DNA of 49,093 nucleotides from a virus, in the IMG/VR virus record IMGVR_UViG_3300044691_000182, positions 1 to 49,093 of that record. One strand, given 5' to 3'. The translations under genes were made by a program, and so were the position numbers. This document shows positions 4,286 to 22,469 of this stretch, piece by piece. How positions within the stretch are numbered: the first letter of the stretch is position 1; the number at the start of each line of letters is the position of its first letter. Below the pieces are notes generated by a model. That model saw only the letters and a program-made list of their open reading frames with translations. It had not been told where the DNA came from and searched no databases.

Positions 4286-4558
4286 ATGACCATTGCGCCA
4301 GATGGTGAATGCGGTAATTGCGTGCGGAACCGCGCAGACCAGTTCCATGAAGCGCTTGTCGATCGCGCAACTTATCAAGATGGAACGCACATGAAACCGG
4401 GATGCACAGCGGAAGTCTGCGAGCGTGCGCTGGAGGTATATCTGGCGCGATACATTCTCACTTTGGTACCCAAGCCCGCCGGCCCGTCGCTTGTGTGCTG
4501 GGAAACGCAGGACGGCGCCGAGCCGGTTCGGCTGTCTTTTGCCGTGAAGGTGTTTTGA
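4286..4558 (+). CDS. Cysteine-containing hypothetical protein (90 aa)
   Basis: ATG at 4286 with GGAG nine bases upstream; the longer upstream frame would begin in the promoter. CGNC near residue 10 and further cysteines later suggest a small zinc-binding protein. Single-gene transcription unit between two family promoters. Family not recognised. Confidence 0.62.
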   Translation: MTIAPDGECGNCVRNRADQFHEALVDRATYQDGTHMKPGCTAEVCERALEVYLARYILTLVPKPAGPSLVCWETQDGAEPVRLSFAVKVF

Positions 4559-4561
4559 CCG

Positions 4562-4589
4562 TTGACATACACCGTTTCCCGTGTATGTT
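4562..4589 (+). promoter_or_regulatory. Early rightward promoter, family copy
   Basis: TTGACA (4562-4567), 16-nt spacer starting TACACCG, TATGTT (4584-4589) with TG just ahead of the -10. It serves the 4620-6435 operon. Confidence 0.75.
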
Positions 4590-4841: not shown

Positions 4842-5041
4842 TCGCACCGCTCGCCTCGCTGCTGGAACTCCGCCCCGGCACCAAAGACCTTGAAGCGTTC
4901 AACATCGAACGGGTGCGCGGCTTTCTGGAACGCAATTTGGGCTGCTCGCGCAAAGAGGTGATCGGCGCGTTGCGGCTGCATCCGCGCACCGTGGCGAAGG
5001 CGATTACCAGGATACGTGACAGCAACAGGAGCGTGGCGTGA
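4838..5041 (+). CDS. Small helix-turn-helix protein (67 aa)
   Basis: GTG start overlapping the previous gene. The C-terminal half (CSRKEVIGALRLHPRTVAKA) has the spacing of a helix-turn-helix, with a basic tail. It could be an early regulator, perhaps of the repeated promoter family, but that is only a guess. It overlaps the RNA ligase start by four bases. Confidence 0.62.
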   Translation: MIAPLASLLELRPGTKDLEAFNIERVRGFLERNLGCSRKEVIGALRLHPRTVAKAITRIRDSNRSVA

Positions 5042-5586
5042 GTTTAGAATTTCAAGCGTTTCCAAAGATCGCTCGTCTCAACCGTGACTGTATCATTACG
5101 GAAAAGTTAGACGGCACCAATGCGCAGGTTCACATTGACGATGACGGCGTGGTGAGCGCCGGCAGTCGCACTCGGTGGATCACGCCCGGCAAGTCAACCG
5201 ATAACTTCGGGTTCGCAGCGTGGGTCGAGAGCAACGCCGATGAGTTACGCAAACTCGGATCAGGTATCCATTTCGGCGAATGGTGGGGCTTGGGCATTCA
5301 GCGCGGCTATGGATTACATGAGTGCCGATTTTCGCTGTTCAACGCCGAGCGTTGGTTGGACAATCCAGAGCGTCCGTCATGCTGCGGTGTGGTCCCGGTG
5401 CTCTATCGTGGTTCGTTTTCCACGCTTGACGTCGAGGATGCAGTGCATCGGCTGCGCGAACATGGATCGGTTGCCGCTCCGGGGTTCATGAGGCCGGAAG
5501 GCGTGATCGTGTGGCATTGCGCGGCGCGATCGATGTTCAAAGTTACCCTGGAAAAAGACAGCGAGCCGAAGGGCGCTGCTGCATGA
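5038..5586 (+). CDS. ATP-dependent RNA ligase, Rnl2-like
   Basis: 182 aa, GTG start. Covalent nucleotidyltransferase fold: motif I is EKLDGTN with the AMP-accepting lysine at residue 23, a GEWWG motif III-like strand at 80-84, EGVIV (motif IV) at 154-158, and FKV (motif V) with Lys168. These enzymes seal 3'-OH/5'-phosphate breaks in RNA in three AMP-transfer steps. The protein is little more than the adenylation domain, lacking the C-terminal domain of T4 Rnl2. In an operon of small early genes, a plausible job is repair of host or phage tRNA cut by defence nucleases. The phage also carries RtcB, which uses different chemistry. Confidence 0.82.
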   Translation: MSLEFQAFPKIARLNRDCIITEKLDGTNAQVHIDDDGVVSAGSRTRWITPGKSTDNFGFAAWVESNADELRKLGSGIHFGEWWGLGIQRGYGLHECRFSLFNAERWLDNPERPSCCGVVPVLYRGSFSTLDVEDAVHRLREHGSVAAPGFMRPEGVIVWHCAARSMFKVTLEKDSEPKGAAA

Positions 5587-10924: not shown

Positions 10925-12268
10925 ATGCGAACCGACCCATATCAGACCCGAGCCCGCGACTTATGCTTGGCTGCCGGTATTGATCCCGATTCCCGCACTG
11001 GCGAGGGTCGTGGGCAGCCTGCGTGGTGCGCGTACCGGGACGCGGCGAGGAAAGAGCATGTCGCCGCCGAACAGGCTGCTACGGCTCTGGAAATGGCGGC
11101 GAACACCATCGCGCCTCAAGCCGAGAAATACCAGAACAGCCCGCTCAAGATTTTCGGCCAGCACGACGACAACACGATTGCGCAGATGCGTAACTGCATG
11201 TCGATCGGCAACGCCGTGGCTGGCGTGATCTGTGCGGACGGACATCTCGGTTATGCCCAGCCGGTCGGCGGCGTCATCGCCTATGAGAAGCAGATCAGCA
11301 TCTCCGGTGTCGGATTCGATATCGGTTGCGGCAACATGGCCGTCCGGCTGGATACGCCTTACGAGGATATCAGCGAGCTTGCCGGCACGATCATCAAAGA
11401 CGTGCACAGGATCATTTCATTCGGCGTCGGCCGGACCAATGACGAGCGGGTCGAACACGCGATGTTTGATGACGCGGACGCGTGGCGCGAAGCGGACCGG
11501 GAGGACTATCGGGCCAAGGCCGTGACCCAACTCGGCACGGTCGGCTCCGGTAACCACTACATAGACCTGATGCGCGACGAAGAGGGTTTCGTTTGGATCG
11601 GCGTGCACTTCGGCAGCCGCGGACTTGGCCATTCTAGCGCAACCAAATATCTCAAAGCTGCAGGTGGCAAAGACGGCATGAACGTCCCGCCCGCCGTGGT
11701 AGACGAGGATTCCGAGATCGGCCGGCGCTACATCGCAGCTATGGAATTGGCCGGTCGGTATTCCTACGCGGGCCGCGAATGGGTCGTGGAGCGCGTCCGC
11801 AAGATCATCGGCGGCAACGTGACCGAGATGATTCACAATCATCACAACTACGCTTGGCGTGAGAATCACAGCGGCAGAGACTTATGGGTTGTCCGCAAGG
11901 GCGCAACGCCAGCCTTTCCAGGGCAGCGAGGTTTCGTCGGCGGTTCAATGGGCGATGATGCTGTGATCCTGGAGGGCGTCGATAGCGAGGAAGCCAAAGC
12001 GTCGCTGTATTCGACCGTACATGGTGCCGGCAGGTTGTTCGGGCGCAAAGAGGCCAAGCGCCGCTTCGACCGCAAAACAATGGATGCATGGTTGCAGGAT
12101 CGAGGCGTGACGCTGGTTGGCGCGGACCTTGATGAAAGTCCGATGGCTTATCGGTCTCTGCCTGACGTTCTGGCAGAACATGCCGGATCAACTAAAGTGC
12201 TTCACACATTGCGCCCGTTCGCGGTCGCGATGGCTGGCGAAGGGGAGTTCGACCCGTGGAAAGACTAG
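10925..12268 (+). CDS. rtcB: RNA-splicing ligase RtcB
   Basis: 447 aa, full length, with an excellent ribosome site (AGGAGG at 10915-10920). RtcB joins a 3'-phosphate or 2',3'-cyclic phosphate RNA end to a 5'-OH end using GTP and Mn2+. The family motifs are present: ADGHLGY at 104-110, DIGCGN at 132-137 with the metal-binding cysteine, GSGNHY, a GVHFGSRG strand, HNHHNY, a VVRKGATPAFPG block, and HGAGR with the guanylated histidine at about 366. In phages it would re-seal RNAs cut by ribotoxins, which leave exactly these ends. It ends within a tRNA-Pro-like sequence. Confidence 0.93.
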   Translation: MRTDPYQTRARDLCLAAGIDPDSRTGEGRGQPAWCAYRDAARKEHVAAEQAATALEMAANTIAPQAEKYQNSPLKIFGQHDDNTIAQMRNCMSIGNAVAGVICADGHLGYAQPVGGVIAYEKQISISGVGFDIGCGNMAVRLDTPYEDISELAGTIIKDVHRIISFGVGRTNDERVEHAMFDDADAWREADREDYRAKAVTQLGTVGSGNHYIDLMRDEEGFVWIGVHFGSRGLGHSSATKYLKAAGGKDGMNVPPAVVDEDSEIGRRYIAAMELAGRYSYAGREWVVERVRKIIGGNVTEMIHNHHNYAWRENHSGRDLWVVRKGATPAFPGQRGFVGGSMGDDAVILEGVDSEEAKASLYSTVHGAGRLFGRKEAKRRFDRKTMDAWLQDRGVTLVGADLDESPMAYRSLPDVLAEHAGSTKVLHTLRPFAVAMAGEGEFDPWKD

Positions 12269-14118: not shown

Positions 14119-14240
14119 ACAAGCGTGTGTGGATCGTCACCGACATGTGGGAGATCGAGATCACGCATGATGAGCACATTTTGCGGAACTTGAATTGGTC
14201 AAATCACCGCGTTCTGGTGCGATACGAAGTAAAGCGTTGA
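14115..14240 (+). CDS. Small hypothetical protein (41 aa)
   Basis: ATG overlaps the upstream stop. The product is a single alpha/beta unit (KRVWIVTDMWEIEITHDEHI). Its stop codon lies inside the -35 region of the promoter copy at 14237, so it closes the early block. Confidence 0.55.
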   Translation: MNKRVWIVTDMWEIEITHDEHILRNLNWSNHRVLVRYEVKR

Positions 14241-14265
14241 CATGCACCGTTTTTGGTGATATGGA
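14237..14265 (+). promoter_or_regulatory. Promoter copy directly ahead of the tRNA-like gene
   Basis: TTGACA (14237-14242), 17-nt spacer starting TGCACCG, TATGGA (14260-14265). Transcription would start near 14272, five bases before the tRNA-like acceptor stem, so it looks dedicated to the structured RNAs and perhaps the terminase genes. Confidence 0.75.
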
Positions 14266-14276
14266 ACGGTCTACAC

Positions 14277-14365
14277 GTCATTGTAGCTCAGTCAGTAGAG
14301 CAGTCGGCCCCGTAACACCGGGTACACCCGACAGGTCGGCGGTTCATATCCGTCCAATGACTCCA
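14277..14365 (+). tRNA. tRNA-like gene with encoded CCA and a 20-nt anticodon loop
   Basis: Acceptor stem GTCATTG/CAATGAC pairs perfectly (14277-14283 with 14355-14361), followed by T and encoded CCA (14363-14365). D-arm GCTC/GAGC (14286-14289, 14298-14301), anticodon stem GTCGG/CCGAC (14303-14307, 14328-14332), variable loop AGGTC, T-arm GGCGG/CCGTC with loop TTCATAT. The anticodon loop is 20 nt instead of 7 and holds an inner 4-bp stem CCCG/CGGG (14309-14312 with 14319-14322). G18 and A58 equivalents are changed. No normal anticodon can be read. It may be a pre-tRNA with a 13-nt insert, a decoy substrate, or a decaying gene. Total 89 nt. Confidence 0.7.
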
Positions 14366-14378
14366 AATTCAAGACTTT

Positions 14379-14452
14379 GCCGTCTCGCGTCAACGAGCGG
14401 CAACGCGGGACTCAGCCCCGCGAGCGGTCCCCACGGGGATAGGCTTGACGGC
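14379..14452 (+). ncRNA. Possible cloverleaf-like RNA after the tRNA-like gene
   Basis: The outer helix GCCGTC/GACGGC (14379-14384 with 14447-14452) encloses three hairpins in a row: CTCG/CGAG around a 6-nt loop (its first base shared with the outer helix), CGCGGG/CCCGCG (14404-14409 with 14417-14422) around a 7-nt loop, and TCCC/GGGA (14428-14431 with 14436-14439) around CACG. A further hairpin follows at 14459-14477. No tRNA consensus loops are present and there is no good ORF. The region lies downstream of the promoter at 14237. A folding prediction by eye only. Confidence 0.35.
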
Positions 14453-14520
14453 CGAAAACGTCTGCCTCTAGGCGACGTGCCGCATATTTCTTTCCGCGTC
14501 TCGGGGCGCTCGTGAATTGC

Positions 14521-15116: not shown

Positions 15117-15368
15117 ATGACGACCAGCGCCACCAAAGTAGCTTCCTTCGCGCGCAGTTTCACCGAAACCATGGTCAAGGTGCTTGCGGGCATCGCCACA
15201 AGCGAGGAAGCGCCCCACGCGGCGCGCGTAACCGCGGCGAATAGCCTGCTCGATCGCGGATGGGGCAAGCCTGCGCAGCCGATTTCGGGTGATCCTGAGA
15301 ACCCCCTGCAATTGGTGACGCGCATCGAGCTCGTCGGTGTCAAACCGGCGCCCCCGCCGCCCTACTGA
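15117..15368 (+). CDS. Putative terminase small subunit (83 aa)
   Basis: ATG at 15117. Helical protein with AARVTAANSLLDRGWGKPAQ, a signature I associate with small proteins directly upstream of large terminases in proteobacterial phages. Its stop overlaps the terminase large subunit ATG. It is shorter than usual for a small terminase (100-200 aa) and lacks an obvious helix-turn-helix, so the role rests on position plus the motif. Confidence 0.55.
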   Translation: MTTSATKVASFARSFTETMVKVLAGIATSEEAPHAARVTAANSLLDRGWGKPAQPISGDPENPLQLVTRIELVGVKPAPPPPY

Positions 15369-16672
15369 TGACCACGCTACAATTTCGAATCCCTGACAAA
15401 TTGGTTCCGGTTTTCACCGGTCCGGCAATGTATCGCGGCGCATTCGGAGGCCGTGGCTCGGGGAAAACGAGAACATTCGCCACGATGGCCGCTGTTCACG
15501 GCGCGCGCTGCGCTGCCGCTGGTAAAGACGGCGTGATCGTGTGCGGCCGCGAATTCATGAACTCCCTCGCCGACAGTTCATTCGCCGAAGTCAAGGCGGG
15601 CATTCAATCCGATGCTTGGCTCACGTCGCAATATGACGTCGGCGAAAAGTACATCCGCACCCGAGATGGCCGAATCGATTTCGCATTTGCCGGTCTGCGT
15701 CACAACCTCGATTCGCTGAAATCCAAGTCGCGCATTCGCCTGCTTTGGATCGACGAAGCCGAGCCGACCAGCGAAACGGCTTGGCAAAAGATCGACCCGA
15801 CGGTCCGCGAAGAGGAAGCGGAAATCTGGGTCACATGGAACCCGGAAAGCGAAAAAAGCCCGACGCACAAGCGTTTTCGCGACAAGCCGCCGCCGTTCTC
15901 CAAGATCACCGAAATGAACTGGCGCGACAATCCGTGGTTCCCGAGCACGCTGCACGTCAAGCGCCTCAATGACCAGGCTGCGCGCCCCGAGCAATACGAT
16001 CACATTTGGGAAGGCGGCTTTCGAACAGCTATGGAAGGTGCTTATTTTGCGCAACTGCTCGCGGTCGCCAAGGAAAAGGGCCGCATCGGCGCCGTCGAGG
16101 CCGATCCGCTATTGCCGATCCGCGCATTTCACGATTTGGGCGGATCGAGCGCGAACGCCGACGCCTATACGATTTGGGTTGTCCAATGGGTCGGGCAAGA
16201 GATTCGCGTGTTGAATTATTACGAATCGGTTGGCCAGGTGCTCGCGCATCACGTCGGTTGGATGCGAAAGAACGGATATGAAGACGCGATAAACTATCTG
16301 CCGCACGACGGTTCGCGTCCCGACGGCATCGTTGGCAAACGATATGAGGATCACTGGCGAGAGGCCGGGTTCAAGGTCGAGCCGTCCATCAAAAACCAAG
16401 GCCCCGGCGCCGCGACAATCCGTATCGAAGCCGTGCGCCGGCTCGGCGGAAAGTTCTGGTTCAACGAAAAGACGACCAAAGCTGGGCGGGATGCCCTTGG
16501 GCATTACCACGAAAAACGTGACGAAATCCGGCTTGTCGGATTGGGGCCGAATCACGATTGGGCCTCGCACGCCGCAGACTCGTTCGGCCTGATGGCGTGT
16601 TGCTACGAGGAACCGGGGCGCGCGGCGGGATTCGGGCGTGCGTTAAAATATCCGAATATGGGCTATGCGTGA
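15368..16672 (+). CDS. terL: Terminase large subunit
   Basis: 434 aa. DNA-packaging motor: an N-terminal ATPase with Walker A GGRGSGKT (27-34) and Walker B LLWIDEAE (125-132), and a C-terminal RNase H-like nuclease with DLGGSSANADA near 252 and DWASHAADS near 411. These features place it in the Terminase_3/Terminase_6 group, which cuts concatemers and pumps DNA through the portal. Start ATG overlaps the previous stop. Its last ten bases overlap the end of a leftward gene. Confidence 0.93.
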   Translation: MTTLQFRIPDKLVPVFTGPAMYRGAFGGRGSGKTRTFATMAAVHGARCAAAGKDGVIVCGREFMNSLADSSFAEVKAGIQSDAWLTSQYDVGEKYIRTRDGRIDFAFAGLRHNLDSLKSKSRIRLLWIDEAEPTSETAWQKIDPTVREEEAEIWVTWNPESEKSPTHKRFRDKPPPFSKITEMNWRDNPWFPSTLHVKRLNDQAARPEQYDHIWEGGFRTAMEGAYFAQLLAVAKEKGRIGAVEADPLLPIRAFHDLGGSSANADAYTIWVVQWVGQEIRVLNYYESVGQVLAHHVGWMRKNGYEDAINYLPHDGSRPDGIVGKRYEDHWREAGFKVEPSIKNQGPGAATIRIEAVRRLGGKFWFNEKTTKAGRDALGHYHEKRDEIRLVGLGPNHDWASHAADSFGLMACCYEEPGRAAGFGRALKYPNMGYA

Positions 16673-19628: not shown

Positions 19629-19948
19629 CCGACGTCAAAAGGGTTTTCATCACCCTCGGACTGAACCGCGTTGAAGAAGGCTTTTATCGCTACTCAGACG
19701 GCGTGGTGACGATGACCTATTTCAACGGCGAAACGTTCCTGACGGAAGACGATACTCCAGTGACGGCAACCGCCGCGCTTGACATGGTTGAGCCGGTCGC
19801 CCGCGCGCTGACCAAGCGCATTCGCAAATGGGCGCTTGGCGATTCCGTTCCAGGATTTGAACGCGGCGCATCGATCGGTGGCCGTGATCCAGGCACGTCC
19901 GACGGCTTCGGGCGATCCCTCACCTACTCGTCGGACGGCTGGATGTAA
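19625..19948 (+). CDS. Hypothetical protein (107 aa)
   Basis: ATG in an overlap with the upstream gene. Beta-rich first half (KRVFITLGLNRVEEGFYRYS) and a polar C-terminus rich in Gly and Ser. Directly upstream of the portal gene, with a one-base stop/start overlap. Family not recognised. Confidence 0.55.
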   Translation: MTDVKRVFITLGLNRVEEGFYRYSDGVVTMTYFNGETFLTEDDTPVTATAALDMVEPVARALTKRIRKWALGDSVPGFERGASIGGRDPGTSDGFGRSLTYSSDGWM

Positions 19949-20568
19949 TGGCCAAACCCAAGAAAATGTCACTGATGGACCTCAAGCCGTTACTCGCGGC
20001 TGAAAAGACCAATGCGCTTGCAGGCATGACCGCGGCGTATCTGATGGACGAGCGCGCCCGCGCCATGGACTATTACCTTGGTCACATGGACGAGGACATG
20101 CCGGTTCCGGCCGGTCGATCGCGCGCCGTCTCAACCGACGTTTCCGACACGATCGAAGGGCTGATGCCTAGCCTCATGGACATCTTCGCGGGGTCGGACG
20201 AAGTGGTTCGCTTTGAACCGATTGGCCCGGATGACGAAGAGGCGGCGCAGCAAGAGACGGATTACGTCAATCACGTCTTCATGCAGCAAAACCCCGGCTT
20301 CATGGTGCTTTATTCGTTCATCAAGGATTCGCTGCTCTCCAAAACCGGCATCGTCAAGGTGTGGTGGGAAGAGCGAGAAGAGGAAGAGCGCGAGACGTAT
20401 TACGACATCACCGACGACCAGTTCATGATCCTGGTGCAGGAAGTCCAAGAGTCGGACGGCGCGCTGCGCATCGCCGAGCACACGATTCACAACGGACCGG
20501 ATTCGGACGACGCAGACGAGCCCGAGGCAGACCACGACAAAGACGACGCATCGGAGATGACATCGTAA
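19948..20568 (+). CDS. Portal protein, N-terminal part (206 aa)
   Basis: The first 160 residues match the start of P22-like portal (head-tail connector) proteins: ERARAMDYYLGHMDEDMP, GRSRAVSTDVSDTIEGLMP, then a DEEAAQQETDYVNHVFMQQN segment and LLSKTGIVKVWWEE. The frame then runs into an acidic tail (DDADEPEADHDKDDASEM) and stops. The rest of the portal continues from a TAATG overlap in the next frame. Portals usually form a dodecameric ring from one 600-750 aa chain; here the chain is broken within the clip/crown-side insertion. Confidence 0.75.
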   Translation: MAKPKKMSLMDLKPLLAAEKTNALAGMTAAYLMDERARAMDYYLGHMDEDMPVPAGRSRAVSTDVSDTIEGLMPSLMDIFAGSDEVVRFEPIGPDDEEAAQQETDYVNHVFMQQNPGFMVLYSFIKDSLLSKTGIVKVWWEEREEEERETYYDITDDQFMILVQEVQESDGALRIAEHTIHNGPDSDDADEPEADHDKDDASEMTS

Positions 20569-22469
20569 TGGCCGGCGCAGGACTCATCTCGGACCAACAG
20601 AAAGCCGCGCTGCTCGCCGCAGCCGCCCAAGCCAAAGGCCCCGTCGGCGCCGGTCCGATCGACTTGCAGGGCATGGCCGCGCAGCGCATGCAGCAACCCG
20701 GTTTCCAAGGCGTTCCCCAACCCTCCCAGCCCGGCGCCGCTCCCGGCCTGATACCCCCAGCCGCTACGCTCCCGCCTCCCCCGCCGCCGACCACGCACGA
20801 CGTTGTTGTGATCAGCACCAAGAAGCTCAAGAGCGCGAAGGTGCTCGGCGTTCCGCCCGAAGAGTGGGGTATCGAGCGCGGCGCGCGTGACATCAAGACG
20901 TGCAATTACTGCTTTCATGACGTCGTGACCAAGACCGCTGGCCAGTTGATCGCGGAAGGTTTCGACGCCGATCAAATCAACGGCCTCACCGACTACACTG
21001 GCTTGACCGAAATCGAGACGCTGGAACGCGACACCGTTGCAGAGCATCTTTCGGGCGATTCGGCCGGTGGCGTGGCGAATGCCGCGGGACGCCTGGTCAA
21101 GATTACCGAGCACTACATTCGGATGGATTACGAGGGCAACGGGCGCCCATGTCTGTATCAGGTGGTGACCGGCGGCGATCAGGGCGAAATCCTGCGCAAG
21201 GACGGCAAAGATTGTATCACGCCGTTTGACGCGATTCCGTTCGCCGCGACCACACCGGTTCCGCAGACGCACCGCTTCTTTGGTCGCTCGATCGCAGACC
21301 TCGTGATGCCGGTGCAGCGCGAAAAGACCGCACTCAAACGTGGCGCCTTGGACAACATCTATTTGCGCAACAATGCGCGCGTCGAAGTCTCCGAAAAATT
21401 CGCCGGGCCGAATACGCTCGACGATCTTTTGGTCTCGCGGCCGGGCGGCGTAATCCGTACCATGCAGCCGGGCGGCATCAACTGGCAAGTCGTGCCGGAC
21501 GTTTCGTCGTCGGTCTTTCCAATGATGCAATACCTCGACGCGGAACTTGAGTCGCGCACGGGCGCCTCGAAGCAGTCGCAGGGCATTGACGCCAACGCGC
21601 TCCAAAATCAATCGGCGACAGCCGTTGCGCAGGTTTTTTCGTCCTCTCAGATGCGCATGAAGCTTGTCGCGCGCATCACGGCCGAAGGCGTTCGCGATAT
21701 CTTTTCGCTGCTGCACGCCACGATCCGCAAGCATGGCCAAGAGAAACAGACCGTCCAGCTTCGCAAGAAGTGGGTCGACGTCGATCCGCGCGGCTGGAAG
21801 GCCCGCAACGACATGACCATCAACGTCGGGCTTGGAACCGGCGGCAAGGCGCAGCAATTCGCGCAGACCATGGCCATTGGCAACGTCCAGAAGGAAATGA
21901 TTCAGGCCGGCAAAACGAACCTGGTCGGCGACGCGGAGCTTTACAACACGGCCGCCGAGCTCACCAAGATCATGGGCCACAAGAGCCCCGATCAGTTTTT
22001 CAAGAACCCGGAAGCCAAGAACCCCGACGGTTCCCTGGTCAATCCGCCGCCCCCGCCCCCGCCCGATCCGAAAGCCGCTGCCATCGCGGCAAAAGGCCAA
22101 GTTGATCAGCAAGCCGCGCAGACCAAGGCGCAACTCGACCAACAGAAAGCATCGCATCAGGCTCAGTTGGATCAGCAGAAAGCCGCAGCCGATCAGATGC
22201 ATCAGCAGATAGCGGCCGCAGTCGAACAAGCGACGGTCAAACTGAAAGCCACTCTTGACGCAAAATTGAAGATTTTGGACGCACATATCAAGGCAGCGTC
22301 CGCGGCGCAGACTGCGCAACATACGCAGGAAGCGCACCACGCCGACCTACATCACGAAGACCAAAGCCATCGAATGGACATGGCTCGCGGTGCGCTCGAC
22401 ATGATTGCGACCGCGCATACCCACGATACGGCACAAGAAGCCCAAACGGAGAAACACAAAGATGACTGA
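20568..22469 (+). CDS. Portal protein, C-terminal part (633 aa)
   Basis: ATG at 20568 sits in TAATG, overlapping the stop of the N-terminal part; the frame is -1 relative to it and open back to 20361. A glutamine/proline-rich leader (about 1-80) precedes the portal core (GVPPEEWGIERGARDIKTC, later FGRSIADLVMPVQREKTAL and QGIDANALQNQSA). After a poly-proline turn near 500 there is a long Gln/Ala/His-rich coiled coil, probably the barrel helix. Either two chains assemble together or a -1 frameshift fuses them; re-initiation at TAATG seems simplest. Confidence 0.78.
   Translation: MAGAGLISDQQKAALLAAAAQAKGPVGAGPIDLQGMAAQRMQQPGFQGVPQPSQPGAAPGLIPPAATLPPPPPPTTHDVVVISTKKLKSAKVLGVPPEEWGIERGARDIKTCNYCFHDVVTKTAGQLIAEGFDADQINGLTDYTGLTEIETLERDTVAEHLSGDSAGGVANAAGRLVKITEHYIRMDYEGNGRPCLYQVVTGGDQGEILRKDGKDCITPFDAIPFAATTPVPQTHRFFGRSIADLVMPVQREKTALKRGALDNIYLRNNARVEVSEKFAGPNTLDDLLVSRPGGVIRTMQPGGINWQVVPDVSSSVFPMMQYLDAELESRTGASKQSQGIDANALQNQSATAVAQVFSSSQMRMKLVARITAEGVRDIFSLLHATIRKHGQEKQTVQLRKKWVDVDPRGWKARNDMTINVGLGTGGKAQQFAQTMAIGNVQKEMIQAGKTNLVGDAELYNTAAELTKIMGHKSPDQFFKNPEAKNPDGSLVNPPPPPPPDPKAAAIAAKGQVDQQAAQTKAQLDQQKASHQAQLDQQKAAADQMHQQIAAAVEQATVKLKATLDAKLKILDAHIKAASAAQTAQHTQEAHHADLHHEDQSHRMDMARGALDMIATAHTHDTAQEAQTEKHKDD

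Follow-up and report, generated by a model that had tools for sequence, protein, structure and literature searches.

In phage T4, two small stable RNAs, C and D, are made along with the tRNAs of the tRNA cluster. Phage tRNAs are now seen as weapons in the contest over tRNA-cutting defences, and two studies deal with phage tRNAs escaping the tRNases of the host (PMC10264068, PMC11555353), the former stressing changes in the anticodon loop. In Bacillus cereus, the pseudo-tRNA tRNAOther is reported (PMC3399842) as an RNA that stays off polysomes, has a role outside translation and flanks mobile DNA. The bacterial Y RNA YrlA (RF02553) is a tRNA mimic tied to RtcB repair operons, for which a function as a competitor of an anticodon nuclease is suggested in PMC7790460. 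By default, gene finders list only tRNAs whose anticodon can be read. A phage RNA combining a tRNA body with the loss of the anticodon would provide a clean test of the body alone, be it as a processing signal, a stability handle or a bait. No paper on anticodon-less phage tRNA-like RNAs was found in open-licence PubMed Central, which is weak evidence of absence.

The locus described here belongs to the virus record IMGVR_UViG_3300044691_000182, whose 49,093 bases were analysed as a whole and are called the window below. The terminase, the portal and the major head protein identify a tailed phage, and the nearest relatives of this terminase in named phages include those of Sulfitobacter, Rhizobium, Paracoccus and Bradyrhizobium phages. 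The record IMGVR_UViG_3300046518_000178 (G024 below) shares the gene order of the window on both sides of the locus. The portal protein is apparently split over two ORFs at a similar place in both genomes (window 19948-22469; G024, L418 1558-4073).

Features of the tRNA-like locus and its surroundings in the window
Feature	Position	Strand	Basis or remark
ATP-dependent type RNA ligase	5038..5586	+	PF09414, 57.3 bits; phrog_548
RtcB RNA ligase	10925..12268	+	PF01139, 221.8 bits
Truncated tRNA-Pro(TGG), directly 3' of rtcB, broken off in the T loop	12265..12324	+	23.9 bits, model 8-63 of 71
Phage-family promoter 5' of the tRNA-like gene (TTGACATGCACCGTT, then likely -10)	14237..14268	+	exact motif copy
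tRNA-like gene with encoded CCA	14277..14365	+	RF00005 50.6 bits, E 5.2e-8 (whole window); folding z -3.3; 21/21 pairs
G18 to A	14294..14294	+	sequence
20-nt anticodon loop, inner stem 14309-14312/14319-14322	14308..14327	+	sequence, fold
A58 to T	14347..14347	+	sequence
Structured RNA, hairpin and possible pseudoknot CGTCAA/TTGACG	14377..14457	+	conserved in G024 (L417 18014-18104)
Hairpin 3' of the structured RNA, possible transcript end	14458..14478	+	fold
Terminase large subunit, 3' of the tRNA slot	15368..16672	+	PF04466, 75.6 bits

An intact cloverleaf around a 20-base anticodon loop

The tRNA-like gene is overlooked by default ARAGORN (0 genes) and by Rfam with its default filter (0 matches), because its anticodon loop comprises 20 bases and not 7. 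As claimed in a previous sequence-only reading, all the arms of a tRNA, a perfect acceptor stem and an encoded CCA are present. The acceptor stem GTCATTG/CAATGAC (7/7 pairs), the D stem GCTC/GAGC (4/4), the anticodon stem GTCGG/CCGAC (5/5) and the T stem GGCGG/CCGTC (5/5, one of them G-U) are all closed, and T73 precedes the CCA. With stems of 7, 4, 5 and 5 bp and an RF00005 score above the gathering score of 29, the gene has the structure of a tRNA gene. In longer transcripts, too, the cloverleaf remains the fold of minimum energy, and only 1 of 200 shuffled sequences reached an equal stability. A detector requiring a 7-bp acceptor, a D arm and a T arm gave no match in 2.1 Mb of shuffled sequence. 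ARAGORN found no tmRNA.

The features expected of a decoding tRNA are, by contrast, missing: a 7-nt loop, U33, an anticodon and the full set of elbow bases. The two altered D- and T-loop bases pointed out earlier are indeed G18 and A58, while G19, U54, U55 and C56 are retained; altogether, 2 of the 13 invariant unpaired bases are changed. The expanded loop and its inner 4-bp stem (CCCG opposite CGGG) are present as previously reported, even if this stem is unexceptional, since a 4-bp Watson-Crick stem occurs in 11% of shuffled loops and an all-G/C one in 1.1%. The claim that no sensible anticodon can be seen is also right; no heptamer with U33 has more than one flanking pair. An antisense role of the loop was considered and rejected: the window offers it no complement longer than 10 nt, a length also reached by 81 of 200 shuffled loops.

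Close homologues of the gene were sought in several collections. Phages yielded only short matches to the D and T arms (best E 0.08), plasmids yielded none, and an exact 25-base pattern of the gene had no match in viral contigs. The loci collected on the basis of rtcB, of the terminase and of the promoter motif contain no close homologue either. BLAST against 385 alphaproteobacterial genomes (E 1e-4) returned no homologue, an empty answer that carries no weight for this search, and a pattern for the expanded anticodon arm gave 0 matches in 289 alphaproteobacterial genomes and 0 in 31 phage records, these strict patterns missing other D arms.

Promoter, genomic slot and downstream RNA in related phages

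A dedicated promoter five bases upstream of the gene had been proposed from the sequence. The promoter itself stands, its -35 side being an exact copy of a motif proper to this phage, and only the distance has to be revised: TTGACA lies from 14237 onwards, and the -10 is probably TATGGA, a hexamer assigned by reading, which ends 9-10 nt ahead of the gene. This motif has 19 sites in the window at no more than 2 mismatches (11 of them exact), with 1.16 expected from shuffled sequences, and most copies, in the window as in G024, are located roughly 45-65 nt 5' of a start codon. Its form TTGACATNCANCGTT recurs throughout both genomes (window 2867-45249; G024, L417-L419). The promoter at 14237 was not scored by a generic sigma-70 scan of the window. 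In G024, a copy of the phage motif lies 35 nt upstream of an intact tRNA-Pro, a spacing comparable with the 40 nt of the tRNA-like gene. The latter is therefore organised like an expressed unit with a single tRNA, and its expression can be inferred from this arrangement.

In the same slot, a copy of the promoter is present in G024 together with an ordinary tRNA-Met(CAT) (L417 17785-17860), one of the four intact tRNAs of this phage. A tiny ORF (ATGAAGAAGTAA) and a perfect 16-bp hairpin lie between the two (L417 17719-17763). A third phage, L546, has a tRNA-Met (15536-15612), and its terminase match follows about 0.9 kb further on. The first acceptor pair is mismatched in both tRNA-Mets, a mark of initiator tRNAs. 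The stretches fetched for four further helicase-based relatives (L543, L544, L545 and L547) contain no tRNA. The slot ahead of the terminase genes is thus occupied by a tRNA or a tRNA-like gene in 3 of 6 phages, the non-decoding form being confined to the window. No relative with the same expanded loop was found that would show random decay or its absence; two relatives carry the normal tRNA-Met in the slot. L546 also contains a YrlA-like RNA (4499-4564), whose 36.1 bits fall short of the gathering score (69).

Behind the gene lies a structured RNA that starts 11 nt after the CCA in the window and 153 nt after the tRNA in G024. Its ten-pair hairpin is conserved, three of the pairs being changed on both sides, and pairing is possible between the hairpin loop CGTCAA and a TTGACG situated downstream. 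Between these two sequences, 3 of 16 pairs covary and none is broken; sliding the pairing partners leaves at most one covarying pair, and 74 of 500 column shuffles match the observed covariation. The covariation of this hairpin, drawn from two sequences, is suggestive only. A 155-nt stretch of the window is more stable than its shuffled versions (z -2.84), whereas the G024 stretch by itself does not exceed its shuffled versions in stability (z -0.34). The structured RNA matches no Rfam family, viral contigs scanned with a pattern contained it in G024 alone, and a covariance model built from both sequences and run on 74 sources recovered only these two, the other hits having E 1.1 or worse. The terminator scan reported no intrinsic terminator at the hairpin that follows.

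The two RNA ligases attributed to this phage are confirmed by their protein families (see table). The truncated tRNA-Pro behind rtcB is 96.7% identical over 60 nt to the intact tRNA-Pro of G024. More generally, ARAGORN finds a tRNA-Pro within about 0.9 kb of rtcB in 11 of 23 rtcB loci (L002-L024); in 5 of these 11 it lies immediately behind rtcB, once on the opposite strand.

Viral tRNA-like genes with abnormal anticodon arms

Viral contigs (L105-L223) contain many tRNA-like genes in which the acceptor and T stems are perfect and the anticodon arm is abnormal. They were collected by a pattern search allowing extra bases between the D arm and the variable loop, from which at least 120 matches were parsed. 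Among the 120 matches listed, 14 were discarded because their acceptor or T stem was weak, and 20 of the remaining 106 are long-variable-arm types. The final set drawn from the matches listed comprises 81 non-redundant genes with at least 6 of 7 acceptor pairs and no normal anticodon arm according to the author's rule; default ARAGORN makes no call for 31 of them, reports an undetermined anticodon for 25 and assigns an isotype to 25. Some of the 81 may be ordinary tRNAs with imperfect stems, and some of the contigs may come from archaeal or eukaryotic viruses.

Several arrangements can be observed. An 18-base loop is kept at 89-95% identity in L118, L157 and L182, the anticodon arm is capped by UUCG or GNRA-like loops in L172, L187 and L191, and a hairpin lies just 3' of the anticodon in L144, L149 and L223. 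An encoded CCA is rarer among the abnormal-arm genes (13/89 of the matches listed) than in an ordinary viral set (76/141), whereas C73 is commoner (26/89 of the matches listed versus 3/141). Together, these genes may be phage tRNA mimics of one class, differences between hosts or misreadings being possible instead. It is rather unlikely that phages recurrently keep a class of anticodon-less mimics with a long loop or a capped hairpin, to which the window gene would belong as a processing handle or decoy. If the wider set is real, one class of phage RNA has gone unnoticed.

Retention, decay and likeness to known systems

The tentatively preferred explanation is that a former tRNA gene has been retained as a non-decoding tRNA-like RNA. 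The phage would transcribe this RNA from its own promoter, and the acceptor helix, the D and T stems and the CCA would still be recognisable as those of a tRNA; since the expanded loop lacks an anticodon and splicing cannot restore one, the RNA would not decode. The leading guess for its job, doubtful when taken by itself, is that of a 5' handle for the processing and stability of the structured RNA downstream: RNase P and 3'-end maturation would excise the cloverleaf and release the RNA behind it. A handle is considered likeliest because promoter, tRNA body and structured RNA stay in both phages while the identity of the tRNA differs. The next guess, which has a smaller chance, is an uncleavable tRNA mimic occupying tRNA-cutting or tRNA-binding proteins. 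The sequences show the cloverleaf, the promoter motif, the tRNA slot of the relatives, the conserved RNA downstream and the lack of a usable splice register; transcription, processing, binding and function are inferred.

Retention is supported by the 21 intact pairs out of 21 that stand beside a lost anticodon and two changed invariant bases, by the phage-family promoter in a slot holding a tRNA-Met in G024 and L546, by a promoter placement much like that of the G024 tRNA-Pro, by the persistence of the cloverleaf fold in longer transcripts, and by the succession, in the window and G024, of a tRNA or tRNA-like gene and the same structured RNA with its covarying hairpin. Several observations point in the opposite direction. 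Without G18 and A58 the L-shape is weakened, and among the matches listed A58 is present in 89/89 and the D-loop GG in 87/89 abnormal-arm viral genes. The only other trace of a tRNA in the window is truncated, which fits a general loss of tRNAs. In addition, the unequal distances of the structured RNA, 153 nt in G024 versus 11 nt in the window, make a shared processing role not obvious.

The closest rival, nearly as probable as retention, is a decaying tRNA pseudogene in which an insertion broke the anticodon loop and the elbow bases are mutating, too little time having passed for the stems to break. The absence of an anticodon, the loss of G18 and A58 and the truncation of the tRNA-Pro in a phage whose relative has four intact tRNAs are all consistent with decay; the unbroken stems and the retained promoter and CCA argue against it. 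Neutral decay was simulated conditionally on two changed invariant unpaired bases, and the cloverleaf stayed unbroken with a probability of 0.030 under a wide prior, 0.083 under a log-uniform prior and 0.137 under a recent-decay prior. Recent decay thus leaves intact stems with a 14% chance, which suits a pseudogene, and the wider priors with a 3-8% chance, which does not; these values are too large to exclude decay. That the stems are perfect although decoding and elbow bases are lost weakly favours a kept RNA, a lean which, allowing for the common decay of phage tRNAs, is judged to amount to a factor of a few. Since no homologue of the loop was found, selection on it is not demonstrable by comparison and the pseudogene remains a close rival. 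If the gene is only decaying, it offers a dated snapshot of tRNA loss.

A distinctly less probable explanation, also counted within retention, is an uncleavable decoy whose body binds anticodon nucleases or tRNA-targeting defence proteins while its rebuilt loop stays uncut. The two RNA ligases and the use of phage tRNAs against tRNA-cutting defences (PMC10264068, PMC11555353) agree with this proposal; the lost elbow bases may harm the mimicry. A link between rtcB and abnormal anticodon arms was dropped, rtcB being present in 3/50 abnormal-arm contigs versus 0/50 ordinary-tRNA contigs, a difference that is not significant; the 50 + 50 contigs were hand-picked from 80 and 79 loci among the matches listed, excluding presumed long-variable-arm, intron-like and duplicate contigs. 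Both the decoy and the tRNA mimic with another job, as suggested in the sequence-only reading, are possible, yet neither is proven.

A tRNA interrupted by an intron, cut and then sealed by RtcB, is very improbable. ARAGORN with introns allowed does report a tRNA-Val(tac) with a 13-nt intron, and the phage does encode RtcB. However, U33 is restored by 0 of the 8 contiguous 13-nt excisions from the loop, which contradicts the intron-like insert suggested in the sequence-only reading. The control was composed of tRNAs with extra anticodon-arm bases from genome contigs, many of them archaeal, and among the matches listed 77 of 84 comparable tRNAs show a Y32-U33-R37 register, with 14.8 expected from shuffled loops. 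Viral tRNA-like genes with a closed anticodon stem show a splice register in 20 of 65 cases among the matches listed (11.2 expected), and the window gene shows none. No splicing endonuclease turned up among the scanned window proteins, and the intron was rejected on the register comparison. In the absence of a splice register restoring U33, and with G18 and A58 also lost, decoding by this RNA is very unlikely as judged from its sequence. The least probable account is a working tRNA whose loop is unusual, or else an error in the sequence, as complete stems and CCA are set against a 20-nt loop lacking U33 on a stem, for which no precedent as a decoding loop is known to us, and a 13-nt assembly error within a closed stem is itself unlikely.

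The known systems resemble this gene in part. Archaeal intron-containing tRNAs share with it a closed anticodon stem and extra loop bases, and differ by the U33 register found in the 77 of 84 genome matches listed. YrlA RNAs depart from it in their architecture, as the T arm precedes the D arm in the RF02553 alignment, whereas the window gene has the ordinary order; no YrlA match was found in the window up to E 10. The tRNase-evading phage tRNAs are phage-encoded like the window gene but have an anticodon, which the latter lacks. The likeness to tRNAOther resides in a tRNA-like form with a non-translational role, which is putative for the window gene; tRNAOther is bacterial and has a Trp anticodon, whereas the window gene is phage-borne and has no anticodon.
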